In this document: piece after piece, positions 1 to 34,031 of the stretch | Layout of the letters: each line of letters starts with the position of its first letter | Numbering within the stretch: the first letter of the stretch is position 1 | NCBI RefSeq assembly: GCF_001434465.1 | Contig: NZ_AZGE01000019.1 | Span: 1 to 37,382, forward strand | DNA: 37,382 bases | Source of the DNA: Limosilactobacillus oris DSM 4864 | GTDB taxonomy: Bacteria > Bacillota > Bacilli > Lactobacillales > Lactobacillaceae | Direction of reading: 5' to 3' | Made by a program: the position numbers and the translations under genes | The notes under the pieces: model-generated | The model's input: only the letters and a program-made list of their open reading frames with translations | What the model was told of the DNA's origin: nothing | The model's database searches: none

Positions 1-674
1 TCGGCACCAGAAGCGGCGATTGGCAGGAGGCCAACCGGGCAGAGGACGGAGTAGCGGCCACCGACCCCATCAGGAATGACAAAGGATTCGTAACCGTTGG
101 TGTCGGCCTCGGTCTTCAACGCCCCCTTGGCCTTGTCGGTTGTGGCGTAGATCCGCTTGTTAGCTTCTTCCAGGCCGTACTTTTCAATCAGCTTCTTCTT
201 GAAGATCCGGAAGGCAATTGACGGTTCAGTCGTCGTCCCGGACTTGGAAACGACATTGACGGAGAAGTCCTTGTCACCAATTAGTTCCAGCAGGTCGTGA
301 ACGTAGGTCGAGCTGAGGGAGTTCCCGGCAAAGATGACCAGTGGGTACTTCCGGTCTGCCGCACTTTGCGCCTGATAGAAAGTGTTGTGGAGGAAGTCGA
401 TTGCCATCTGAGCACCGAGGTAGGAGCCCCCGATTCCAATGACAACCAAGATGTCGGAGTCAGACTGGATCTTCTTGGCGGCTTGCTTGATCCGCTCAAA
501 TTCATCCTTGTCGTACTCGCTTGGCAGGTGGAGCCAGTCGCGGTAGGCGGCCCCGGCACCGGTCCCGTTGCGGAGTTCATCATCCGCGGCCTTGACCATT
601 GCCTGCATTTCACCAAGTTCGTTGTCATGAACAAATTGTTTCAAGCCTTGTGTATCAAATGAAAGATGTGCCAT
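1..674 (-). CDS. pgi: Glucose-6-phosphate isomerase, 5' part (runs off the left edge)
   Basis: Interconverts glucose 6-phosphate and fructose 6-phosphate in the cytoplasm. The first 224 codons are present. The reading starts [12 protein letters not shown] and contains the sugar-phosphate (SIS) domain motif [25 protein letters not shown], and the family signature [16 protein letters not shown] close to the window edge. The ATG at 672-674 follows a GA-rich ribosome binding site (AGAAGAGAG). The C-terminal half lies outside the window. The gene diverges from a SemiSWEET gene, and its promoter at 746-774 carries a cre-like site and a LacI-type palindrome, which suggests carbon-source control. Family assignment is firm; regulation is inferred from the sites. 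Confidence 0.96.
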
Positions 675-30083: not shown

Positions 30084-30409
30084 TTGATTTTGCCATAATA
30101 GGGTGCTATCCTACAAACAATCAATTATTACAAAAGACGTTGATCGAGAACGAGGGCACGAACCGGTAGCAGAGAGCTGGTGGGTGGTGCGAACCAGCAG
30201 ATGGACCGTGCGCTTCAATCACTCGGGAGTCGTATGTCGAACGAAGAATCAAGTAGAGCGTACTGGTAGCACCCATTATCGTGCCGGCTAATTGCCGTTT
30301 ACGGACGGCAGTTGGTTAAGGCGGTTTAATAGCCGTAAAGAAAGGTGGTACCACGCTCAGAGCGTCCTTTTCAGTTCCTACTTATAGGAGCCGGGAAGGA
30401 CGCTTTTTT
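30084..30409 (+). ncRNA. Ile-specifier T-box leader upstream of FAH/hicD genes
   Basis: Promoter: TTGATT (30084-30089), 17 bp, extended -10 TGC-TATCCT (30107-30112). Stem I: CGAG and GGCACG pair with CTCG and CGTGC, enclosing the loop GCTTCAATCA; the codon before the final A is ATC (30218-30220), Ile. AGAGAGC (K-turn region) is present. The T-box GGTGGTACCACGC is at 30344-30356; TGGT fits the ACCA end of tRNA-Ile. Terminator: AGCGTCCTT/AAGGACGCT (30361-30369, 30396-30404) plus T6. No synthetase follows. It should switch on downstream genes when Ile-tRNA is uncharged. Confidence 0.85.
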
Positions 30410-30442
30410 ATTTCTTCGTCAATCTTAAAGGTGGTGATGGTC

Positions 30443-30526
30443 ATGGCAGACAGCGACATTAGCAACATTCAAATCCAACAACAATTAATCCATGCGCAAA
30501 AAAATAAATATTTATGTCGTAGTTAA
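30443..30526 (+). CDS. 27-codon ORF between T-box and FAH gene
   Basis: It begins ATG 30443, 8 nt after AAAGGTGG, and encodes MADSDISNIQIQQQLIHAQ and a short basic end. Four of its first sixteen codons are Ile (ATT, ATT, ATC, ATC), the amino acid read by the T-box above. No T-run terminator follows; a small GCCCG/CGGGC stem lies at 30533-30550. It may be a leader peptide, a remnant, or chance. Confidence 0.4.
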   Translation: MADSDISNIQIQQQLIHAQKNKYLCRS

Positions 30527-30589: not shown

Positions 30590-31399
30590 ATGACTGAACA
30601 ACACGTTACCTTAAACCAACAACAAGAAGCATTCGCCCAGGCCCTCGCAAAGGCCTACCAAAGTAAGGAACCGCTCCAGATGGCTGACTGGCAGGGTGTC
30701 GTGACCGATGACGATACCGCCTACGCCGTCCAGGACCGCTTCGTCGCCCTCAAGAAACTCCCGACCGGCGGCTACAAGGTTTCCCTAACCTCCAAGCAGA
30801 CCCAGGACATGTTTGATTCCGACAGTCCCCTCTACGGGCAGCAAGTCGACTCCCACTTTCTGCCTGCCCCAGCCCACTTATCACTAAAGGAACAGACAAT
30901 GGACCCCCTGCTCGAAGTCGAGCTTGGCTTCCGGGCCACTGAAGACCTGCTGGCGACCGATAGTTTGGACGACCTCCTCCATAAGACCACCGTGTGTGGG
31001 ACCGTCGAATTGCCGGACAGCCGCTTTGCCGACTGGTTCCCCGACCTCGACAAGTTCAGCGTGATGAGTGACTGCGCGGTCGGCGGATTCGTCGTTTATG
31101 GTGAAGAACGCCCAAGCGCTGAAGTCTTCCCAACCGTTGCGGACGCCGCCAACGTCAACGTGACCCTCTACCATGACGGCAAGGAAGAAGCCACCGGCAG
31201 CTCCAGTGAAGTGCTCGGCAACCCGTTCGAATCCCTCGCCTGGCTGGTCAAGAAACTCGCCGCCCAGGGAAAGGTTTTCCAGGCCGGCCAGCTAGTTTCC
31301 TCCGGGACCTTCCTCCTGCCGCCGCACCTGACCGCGGGCAAGTGGGAAGCCAAGTTTGACCACGGTTTCGGTAACGTCACGGTTAACGTCGTCGACTAA
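30590..31399 (+). CDS. FAH-superfamily hydratase/decarboxylase (2-keto-4-pentenoate hydratase-like)
   Basis: A 269-aa protein of the MhpD/DmpH-like branch of the fumarylacetoacetate hydrolase superfamily. Motifs: GGYKVSLTSKQTQ (about 61-73), the metal-binding pair PLLEVELGF (ExE, about 105-113), ELPDSRF (about 143-149) and the C-terminal VSSGTFLLPPHLTAGK. These enzymes hydrate or decarboxylate 2-keto acids with Mg or Mn. AAGGAGG precedes ATG. It is the first large gene behind the Ile T-box and lies 30 bp upstream of the hydroxyacid dehydrogenase, so a shared 2-keto acid route is likely. The precise substrate is unknown. Confidence 0.82.
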   Translation: MTEQHVTLNQQQEAFAQALAKAYQSKEPLQMADWQGVVTDDDTAYAVQDRFVALKKLPTGGYKVSLTSKQTQDMFDSDSPLYGQQVDSHFLPAPAHLSLKEQTMDPLLEVELGFRATEDLLATDSLDDLLHKTTVCGTVELPDSRFADWFPDLDKFSVMSDCAVGGFVVYGEERPSAEVFPTVADAANVNVTLYHDGKEEATGSSSEVLGNPFESLAWLVKKLAAQGKVFQAGQLVSSGTFLLPPHLTAGKWEAKFDHGFGNVTVNVVD

Positions 31400-32371: not shown

Positions 32372-32439
32372 CCGCTTGGCACTTTAGTGAAGTATGACCA
32401 ACCATAAAACATAGATTAGAATAATTTTTAATTTATGGC

Positions 32440-32468
32440 TTGCAAAATTAAAACTCTAATGATATTCT
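32440..32468 (+). promoter_or_regulatory. Promoter of the steT leader
   Basis: -35 TTGCAA (32440-32445), 17 bp, -10 TATTCT (32463-32468). The predicted start near 32475 leaves a short leader before the peptide's ribosome binding site AAAGGAG (32488-32494). Confidence 0.6.
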
Positions 32469-32502
32469 AATAAACATCAAGTACACGAAAGGAGAAAGAT
32501 CA

Positions 32503-32574
32503 ATGTTAATGTTAGTATTTGCTAATCAATTGCAACAATCTTCCTCCTCAGCCTCTAACTCTATTCGAGGCTGA
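32503..32574 (+). CDS. Serine-rich leader peptide upstream of steT
   Basis: A 23-codon ORF starting ATG 32503, with AAAGGAG 8 nt upstream. Codons 13-20 read SSSSASNS (TCT TCC TCC TCA GCC TCT AAC TCT), six Ser in eight, ending four codons before TGA 32572-32574. A hairpin CTCAGCCTC/GAGGCTGAG (32547-32555, 32567-32575) overlaps the Ser codons and the stop. The next gene is a Ser/Thr exchanger. The layout is that of an attenuation peptide measuring seryl-tRNA. Short, so chance cannot be fully excluded. Confidence 0.7.
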   Translation: MLMLVFANQLQQSSSSASNSIRG

Positions 32575-32614
32575 GTGGTTTTAGTGTACCTAAAATAGAA
32601 CGGTTTAATAAATT

Positions 32615-32676
32615 ACCGGGTTCACTTAATCATTTGGCAATTTCCAGATGGTTACGGGTGGACCCGGTTTTATTAT
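32615..32676 (+). terminator. Attenuator terminator ahead of steT
   Basis: ACCGGGTTCAC (32615-32625) pairs with GTGGACCCGGT (32658-32668, one G-U), with an inner stem CATTTGG/CCAGATG (32631-32650), then TTTTATTAT. A competing pairing of TTAGTGTACC (32581-32590) with the 32619-32626 region would disrupt it. A ribosome at the leader stop would cover 32581-32590; one stalled on the Ser codons would not. Confidence 0.65.
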
Positions 32677-32702
32677 GCCGATTTTGAATTGGAGGAATGG
32701 TG

Positions 32703-34031
32703 ATGAATAATCAACCAACAGAAGAACTAAAACGGTCGTTAGGTTTTTGGTCGGCAATTTCGATTGTCGTGGGGACAATTATTGGTTCAGGAATCTTCTT
32801 CAAGCAGGGTTCTGTCCTTGATAGTGCCGGTTCGTCAACTCTCGCCATTGCTGCCTGGGTATTCGGGGGAATTATTACCCTAACTGGTGGGTTGACCATC
32901 GCCGAAATTGGGGCGCAAATGCCATACACCGGTGGTCTTTACGTCTATATTGAAAATCTCTACGGCCGGATTCTCGGTTTTCTTGCCGGCTGGATGCAGA
33001 TAATCATCTACGGCCCCGCAATCATCGCTTCGGTTGCCGGGTTTATGAGTATCTTAATGGCTAACTTCTTTGGTCTTGGCACCGCGTGGCGGATTCCACT
33101 GGCCGTCATCACCGTTCTGGCAATCGGTGTGATGAACCTTTTTGAAAACAAGGTTGGGGCGATCTTTGCCATCATTACAACGACGGGGAAAATGATCCCA
33201 ATCGCAGCAATCATTATCTTTGGTCTCCTCTTCGGTAACCAGCACGCCTTCGGTCAAACCGTTACCGAAGTTCAACACGCTACTGGGGGCTTCGGTGTCG
33301 CCGTTTTAGCTACCCTCTTCGGTTACGACGGTTGGATCCTAATCGCTAACCTTGGTGGTGAAATGAAGAACCCGCAAAGGCTGTTACCAAGGGCAATCAT
33401 CTTGGGAATTACCGCTGTCTTAGTAATCTACACGTTAATTACTATCGGAATCCTCAAGTTCCTGCCGGCGAACTTAATCCACCATCTGGGCGAAAATGCC
33501 ACTGCCTACCTGGCAACTAAAGCCTTTGGCGCGATTGGTGGCAAACTTCTCTCGGCCGGAATTATCATCTCGATGATGGGAACCTTGAACGGGAAAATGA
33601 TTACCTTCCCGCGGATCGTTTACGCAATGGCGCGCCGGGGCGACCTGCCATTCTCGCGTTTTCTATCGTTTGTTACGCCCAAGGGGAAGTCGCCCGTCAT
33701 TGCCACATTGTTCATTGTGGCCCTTGCAACGGTGATGATGTTCTTCTTCGATCCCGACCACCTCTCGGATCTCTGTGTCTTCACTGTTTACTGCTTCTAC
33801 CTGTTAGCATTTTTTGGGATCTTTATTCTAAGAAAGAAAAATAAGGGGAACCGTCCCTTTAGCACCCCTCTTTACCCGCTTGTCCCAATCATTGCGATTG
33901 CCGGTGGAATCTTCGTCCTGGTCAGCGAACTGTTCAACGATCCGGCCGGTGTCCTGCTCTTCATCGGAATCGTCATCGTTGGCCTCCCTATCTTCTACGC
34001 TGTTAAACGAATGGACGCCAAGCGAATGTAA
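32703..34031 (+). CDS. steT: APC-superfamily Ser/Thr exchanger-like amino-acid permease
   Basis: A 442-aa transporter with about 12 helices. The LAT-type hallmark VVGTIIGSGIFFKQG (about 19-33) in helix 1 binds the amino-acid backbone, and FGYDGWILIANLGGEMKNPQ (about 212-231) lies in helix 6-7. It resembles the Bacillus Ser/Thr exchanger SteT and other L-type exchangers. The Ser-rich leader peptide upstream supports serine as a substrate, an inference. Start ATG 32703 is 7 nt after GGAGG; the ATG at 32697 is too close to it. A terminator follows at 34062. Confidence 0.8.
   Translation: MNNQPTEELKRSLGFWSAISIVVGTIIGSGIFFKQGSVLDSAGSSTLAIAAWVFGGIITLTGGLTIAEIGAQMPYTGGLYVYIENLYGRILGFLAGWMQIIIYGPAIIASVAGFMSILMANFFGLGTAWRIPLAVITVLAIGVMNLFENKVGAIFAIITTTGKMIPIAAIIIFGLLFGNQHAFGQTVTEVQHATGGFGVAVLATLFGYDGWILIANLGGEMKNPQRLLPRAIILGITAVLVIYTLITIGILKFLPANLIHHLGENATAYLATKAFGAIGGKLLSAGIIISMMGTLNGKMITFPRIVYAMARRGDLPFSRFLSFVTPKGKSPVIATLFIVALATVMMFFFDPDHLSDLCVFTVYCFYLLAFFGIFILRKKNKGNRPFSTPLYPLVPIIAIAGGIFVLVSELFNDPAGVLLFIGIVIVGLPIFYAVKRMDAKRM

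Follow-up and report, generated by a model that had tools for sequence, protein, structure and literature searches.

Attenuators of amino-acid operons in Proteobacteria follow a general scheme in which a leader ORF carrying a run of codons is followed by overlapping hairpins and a terminator. The trp, his, thr and leu attenuators share with the leader analysed here, which lies upstream of the permease gene steT in Limosilactobacillus oris DSM 4864, a codon-run leader ORF, overlapping 1:2, 2:3 and 3:4 hairpins and a terminator placed before the gene, features that PMC1183508 describes for trp attenuation. The steT leader differs from them in the amino acid that it would sense (serine), in preceding a transporter gene rather than a biosynthetic operon, in lacking an Rfam match, and in a closing helix around the leader Shine-Dalgarno (SD) sequence and ORF.

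Leader-peptide attenuators of Gram-positive bacteria include the Leu-rich attenuator peptide of the Staphylococcus aureus ilv-leu operon, which is supported by suppressor mutations and promoter activity (PMC5794164); unlike the steT leader, it uses Leu/Ile codons, controls a biosynthetic operon and belongs to another family. That paper also points to BCAA leaders predicted for Lactococcus lactis, Corynebacterium and streptococci. In bacilli, His leader peptides of hisZ and hisS* were predicted by comparative genomics and replace a T-box (PMC2965389). These are likewise predicted Firmicutes leader peptides, but they carry His codons and precede tRNA-synthetase paralogues, and the word serine does not occur in the main text of that paper. 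As PMC2965389 and PMC5794164 present it, leader-peptide attenuation serves mostly biosynthetic operons and genes for tRNA synthetases, and it is sparsely documented in Firmicutes.

Two other systems are alike in the signal rather than in the RNA. The T-box (RF00230), abundant in the genome studied here, also responds to the supply of an amino acid by controlling a terminator, but the leader has no match to the T-box covariance model. T-boxes read uncharged tRNA directly, without translation. In the B. subtilis SinR sensor, as described in PMC3862929, UCN codons also sense serine starvation, but they lie in the body of the regulator gene and act without an attenuator RNA.

A candidate attenuator upstream of steT

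The window, by which we mean the whole stretch of DNA analysed (37,382 nt), carries steT at 32703..34031 on the plus strand, as are all features of the leader given below. The gene encodes a SteT/BasC-like APC amino-acid permease (PF13520, 192 bits) whose best solved relative, 6f2g (E 1.4e-84), we take to be BasC, an Ala/Ser/Cys exchanger; by these two matches it is related to the APC exchangers. The closest named SteT matches are those of L. portuensis, L. urinaemulieris and L. vaginalis, at 96-97% identity. The longest ORF opens at 32697, but translation probably starts at the ATG at 32703, 7 nt from the SD (32691..32695). Since no NCBIfam model over its own cut-off names the permease, serine transport is read from homology together with the leader, which suggest serine as a substrate, and the name 'Ser/Thr exchanger' follows from homology. 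For serine biosynthesis, no PGDH was found over the curated cut-off in the genome, the best match reaching 189 bits against 454.

Upstream of this gene, we find what is very likely a ribosome-mediated transcription attenuator for serine. A promoter-like site (32440..32468), already proposed in an earlier note on this DNA, consists of TTGCAA (32440-32445), a 17-nt spacer and an extended -10 TGATATTCT (TGnTATTCT, 32463-32468). Because it has only 8/12 consensus matches, our promoter scan (threshold 9) does not report it and lists instead a different weak site at 32394-32422. Among the 37 leaders described below, a TTGnnn-15..19-TAWnnT string occurs anywhere in the upstream stretch of 32, and TATTCT in 27. 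The leader ORF (32503..32574, 23 codons, MLMLVFANQLQQSSSSASNSIRG) follows an SD, AAAGGAG, at 32488..32494; the presence of an SD was a selection criterion when the 37 leaders were picked. Codons 13-20 include six Ser (SSSSASNS), read from the run TCT TCC TCC TCA GCC TCT AAC TCT (32539..32562), and the stop codon lies at 32572. Both the good ribosome binding site and the Ser-rich 23-codon ORF had been recognised in the earlier note. Across both strands of the whole window, only two SD-preceded ORFs of 12-45 aa have at least five identical residues in eight: the leader ORF, and a second one with a TTG start.

Folding places the ORF within a set of mutually exclusive hairpins. Segment 1 (32547..32555, CTCAGCCTC) pairs with 32567-32575, so the 5' arm of the 1:2 hairpin consists of run codons and its 3' arm holds the stop codon. 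Segment 2 (32567..32590) pairs either with segment 1 and the 5' arm of the closing helix P1 (GTACAC, 32481..32486, paired with 32584-32589) or with segment 3 (32615..32638), which is at the same time the 5' arm of the terminator. In the fold of 32570-32640, before the last terminator arm, the antiterminator comprises an 11-bp main helix (32570-32580 with 32628-32638), one arm of which overlaps the leader stop codon, and an inner part (32583-32590 with 32619-32626). As the 3' arm of P1 is also used by this inner part, P1 belongs to the 1:2 state. The competing pairing of 32581-32590 with 32619-32626 that had been proposed earlier does exist, but it makes up no more than the inner part of the antiterminator; the main helix, the 1:2 hairpin and P1 had been missed. 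Segment 4 (32644..32677) supplies the 3' arm and U-rich tail of the terminator, which extends from about 32615 to 32668 with the tail to 32677 and ends, as had been noted, before the steT SD. The fold of 32600-32680 reaches -42.5 kcal/mol (z -8.36), and the terminator is absent from our simple terminator scan, the loop and tail rules of which are narrow.

With sufficient Ser-tRNA, the leader ribosome would run to the stop codon and cover segment 2, so that segments 3 and 4 would form the terminator and steT would be off. When Ser-tRNA is short, probably above all that of the UCN readers, the ribosome would halt on the serine run and cover segment 1; segment 2 would then pair with segment 3 as an antiterminator, RNA polymerase would read into the permease gene, and more serine would be taken up. 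At the sequence level this scheme is supported by the RNA parts, by covariation of P1, 1:2 and 2:3, and by the codon run and its placing, while real termination at the leader terminator and a response to serine are what we infer.

A degenerate T-box, or another riboswitch that binds tRNA or a ligand without translation, would be an alternative at home in this genome, where T-boxes give 24 matches at E <= 0.001, seven of them over the cut-off. The 3' arm of the terminator moreover reads GGGTGGACCCGG, which resembles the T-box sequence, although that sequence belongs in the antiterminator rather than in the terminator 3' arm, and relatives such as L001 and L002 do not preserve the string. The leader region itself has no Rfam match, either at the gathering cut-off or at E <= 1, on which ground the T-box and other Rfam families were rejected; we regard this alternative as extremely improbable. 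Elsewhere in the window, the stretch 30131-30526 holds a T-box match (83.8 bits, under the cut-off) followed only by a 27-codon ORF (30443-30526, MADSDISNIQIQQQLIHAQKNKYLCRS) ahead of an HpaH-like gene at 30590, and may be what is left of a gene under T-box control.

Recurrence and covariation of the leader

A protein scan selected 61 loci, which together with the window make 62 places. A Ser-run ORF with an SD lies 5' of the permease in 33 of the 61 loci, or 34 of the 62 places, whereas 40 dinucleotide shuffles of the 62 upstream regions contained 0.8 such ORFs on average and four at most, so a chance Ser run was rejected. With three leaders from a search of the genus (L063, L083, L084) the set comprises 37 leaders and 30 distinct peptides, each with 4-8 Ser; many are close relatives, and the counts are therefore not independent. 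All 33 leader-bearing loci fall among L001-L034, which represent Limosilactobacillus and a few other lactobacilli (Lactobacillus jensenii and L. psittaci among them), one record (L026) being titled Bacteroides. No Ser-run leader was seen in L. gastricus (L029), nor within 400 nt upstream of any of the 27 distant steT orthologues (L035-L061, 54-59% identity).

Of the 50 genomes of the genus, 48 carry a steT orthologue (E <= 1e-100). The covariance model R1 (see below) matches next to steT in 35 of these 48 genomes (not every match was read individually), and one further steT leader (L187) was recognised by eye; the leader is absent from 11 of the 48, and in one genome (G015) the contig starts within the gene, so that its upstream region cannot be read. 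The conservation of Ser codons that the earlier note proposed to check thus holds for the 37 leaders collected, but not for these 11 orthologues. At one locus (L195, G034:C1:1469100-1469800), the leader region is gone and steT begins right behind the stop codon of the preceding gene, for which reason attenuation has probably been lost there.

We assessed the helices by pairing each arm with its own partner or with partners from other leaders, in 10,000 permutations. Own partners paired more strongly than swapped ones in P1 (mean -10.4 vs -7.7 kcal/mol, 34 distinct pairs), in 1:2 (-16.6 vs -13.1 kcal/mol, 31 distinct pairs) and in 2:3 (-15.2 vs -13.4 kcal/mol, 36 distinct pairs), with 0/10,000 permutations reaching the observed value in each case and again none when the test was repeated with 16 representatives. 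Alignment A2 and its model R1 were built from 23 of the 37 leaders, leaving out seven in which P1 lies elsewhere or is weak (L018, L019, L020, L023, L025, L026, L033) and seven near-duplicates (L002, L003, L010, L011, L017, L034, L063). In A2, 94.7% of cells pair, and two-sided changes occur in 8 of 15 pairs, including 5 of the 6 pairs of P1; two-sided cells number 27 against 7.2 in shuffles, a count reached by 0/500. Further pair types, one of five covariation measures, stand at 17 against 15.9 by chance and are equalled in 134/500 shuffles. P1 was also tabulated for 35 leaders, with arms chosen by eye from duplexes and L026 and L033 not entered. All six pairs are kept in 32 of them and five in L012 and L025, while L016 scores 1/6 because of a wrong register, its duplex having -11.9 kcal/mol. 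The arms read GTACAC/GTGTAC in 17 of the 35 leaders, and GTACAG/CTGTAC, ATGCCA/TGGCAT, ACACAC/GTGTGT and others elsewhere. Covariation thus backs P1, 1:2 and 2:3, whereas the earlier note would have taken a lack of covarying stems as refutation; the 3:4 terminator is predicted from folding.

Folding with a masked ribosome

To follow the switch, the transcript was folded up to the terminator loop with an assumed ribosome footprint of -18..+12 from the first A-site base. Averaged over the 37 leaders, the antiterminator has 10.3 pairs in naked RNA, 19.3 with a ribosome stalled on the second run codon and 2.2 with one at the stop codon, this last loss following partly from the mask itself. A stall exceeds the stop position by more than two antiterminator pairs in 37/37 leaders and exceeds the naked state in 32/37; in the other 5/37 it adds two pairs at most. 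With no ribosome on it, the RNA is divided almost evenly between the two states (11.3 pairs for 1:2, 10.3 for 2:3). As the stalled ribosome was moved along the leader, the mean rose from about 11 antiterminator pairs upstream of the run to 15.7 one codon before it and to 17.4-19.4 while run codons 0-5 occupied the A site, before dropping to 3 at the end. This peak on the run codons indicates that the run sits where classical attenuation needs it. The stop-versus-stall logic of the earlier note agrees with the model, though the antiterminator is larger than it had supposed, with a main arm that extends over the stop codon.

A threonine counterpart of the leader

R1 gives two matches in 19 of the 50 genus genomes. 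In the genome of the window (G000), the second match (G000:C1:148598-148712, L186:620-682, E 0.005) contains the ORF MQLFKIKILIELTSTTTTTN, which reads LTSTSTTTT in relatives, and is followed by a permease gene whose best NCBIfam match is the ThrP threonine/serine transporter (561.6 bits; curated cut-off 850). We collected 22 Thr-run leaders, 21 from the genus and one from another; an N-terminal motif served to recognise the downstream genes, of which two (L145, L136) were scanned. In the mask model these leaders form 9.0 antiterminator pairs naked, 15.0 at a stall and 1.0 at the stop, the stall exceeding the stop in 22/22 and the naked state in 16/22. A region fetched for its R1 match in another genome (L185, G023) has no run-bearing ORF.

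R2, a model of the Thr leaders, matches in 72 of 396 family genomes at E <= 0.1, many of these matches being weak. Among the 38 loci read from this search, 24 have a Thr-rich leader before a ThrP-like gene, including 18 from five other genera; this count is not independent of the run, since R2 holds Thr codons, and two of the 24 (L246 and L251) have only four Thr and three Ser. The remainder are three Ser leaders before steT, one Thr run at a contig end, one Leu run before leuA, one unrelated Tyr run, and eight loci without an ORF that passed the run filter. Mixed runs also occur before steT (TSSSTTTTS in L126, TSSSTTTS in L084).

ThrP-like proteins were matched in 62 of 91 genomes. We surveyed 40 upstream regions, namely the best match of 37 genomes and a second copy in three, leaving out G000, G028, G037, G053, G061 and G072, whose leaders had already been read, as well as G017, G066 and the lower-scoring rest. 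A Thr-run leader lies in two of the 40 (G136, also found by the model, and G070), and no other Ser or Thr run was seen in them. Such runs therefore seldom arise by chance, and the Thr leader is a feature of the closest orthologues of ThrP; none precedes the second ThrP paralogue in the genome of the window. The leader codon thus appears to follow the transporter, with Ser runs before SteT-like and Thr runs before ThrP-like permeases whose substrates are assigned by homology. The fit between sensed amino acid and transporter pointed out in the earlier note is borne out to this extent, with the Thr/ThrP paralogue as an internal control.

Further leaders of this sort came to light in passing. A Leu-run leader, MKSYAISQININNAALLLNLFSQS, precedes a 2-isopropylmalate synthase-like gene (L250, G225:C1:164800-166900, minus strand) and is probably a leu attenuator. 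Another, MTNFNTNIINNALLLNLLLI, precedes a PTS_EIIC_2 gene (L135, G067:C1:157476-157590), and in a different genus a leader with STSSDSTVLPSS stands before a further APC permease (L137, G317, minus strand).

Translation and codon choice

Among close relatives, single-codon changes ahead of the run comprise 54 synonymous and 13 non-synonymous ones (54/67, where 16% synonymous is expected at random), and 58/67 fall at third positions; as the compared pairs share ancestry, no formal probability is attached to this excess. Such synonymous change suggests that the leader ORF is translated. The corresponding purifying selection within clades would also suit a leader of the ermC type, which senses a small molecule or arrests on its nascent peptide and has no need of codon-specific stalling. 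Between clades, however, the N-terminal part differs (MLVFNNQLQQ, MIKPFFNILSV, MNNTNQINLFMLNT) while the Ser run is common to all, and Thr leaders combine the same layout with a different run residue. We therefore hold an ermC-type leader to be very improbable. Control of that type would hide the SD or start of the downstream gene in an alternative hairpin; the steT SD lies beyond the terminator. The earlier label 'translational attenuation' is a term for ermC-type control, and ribosome-mediated transcription attenuation is the proper one.

Serine residues among the first four run codons are encoded by UCN in 141 of 143 cases, and exclusively so in 36 of 37 leaders, against a background UCN share of 60% in the 22 long ORFs of the window. 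In B. subtilis under serine starvation, ribosomes are described as slowing at UCN rather than AGC/AGU codons (PMC3862929). Conceivably, the run is instead kept for RNA pairing, its TTCCTCC being complementary to GGAGGAA in either the leader SD or the steT SD, in an SD-masking switch that would have nothing to do with serine. CCTCC is present in 28/37 Ser leaders and 20/22 Thr leaders, and in the minimum-energy fold the leader SD GGAG does pair with CUCC of the run. Yet the 9/37 Ser leaders that lack CCTCC still keep 4-8 Ser, CCTCC is missing from 21 of another 27 leaders, most of which carry Thr runs, and at positions 6-8 of the run, past the stretch that could pair with the SD, Ser still occupies 79 of 110 codons, drawn from both UCN (59) and AGY (20). 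Codon identity moreover tracks the type of transporter. The CCTCC-free leaders disfavour anti-SD pairing as the sole reason for the run, and we consider a masking switch improbable.

Discussion

The earlier observation is confirmed and its interpretation is largely right: the steT leader is very probably an attenuator of a known kind with a new amino acid, target and clade. Among the open-literature matches listed, a set outside which most subscription papers fall, we found neither a serine leader peptide nor leader-peptide control of these permeases, and in the text seen of a Caulobacter genome paper serine codons are mentioned only for pausing; such silence is a weak sign of novelty.

Whether the Ser and Thr leaders form one Lactobacillaceae attenuator family, operating in parallel to T-boxes and retuned by first-base changes between UCN Ser and ACN Thr codons within a kept RNA scaffold, so that each version follows its transporter and hybrid steT leaders such as that with TSSSTTTTS sense both amino acids, seems to us evenly balanced. 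It is the cross-matches between the covariance models that suggest common descent of the two kinds of leader. The Ser/Thr pair with its codon replacement is what lifts the steT leader above routine annotation.

If the attenuator is real, attenuation acts on genes for uptake and senses serine in a large bacterial family known from gut and food. The attenuators would then come as a matched Ser/Thr pair, so that the way in which codon replacement changes sensor specificity could be tested directly in harmless, tractable species, and leader codons can help to assign transporter substrates. If the family reading is true as well, serine would be a previously unreported leader-peptide signal, and these bacteria would possess a sensing layer beside their T-boxes.
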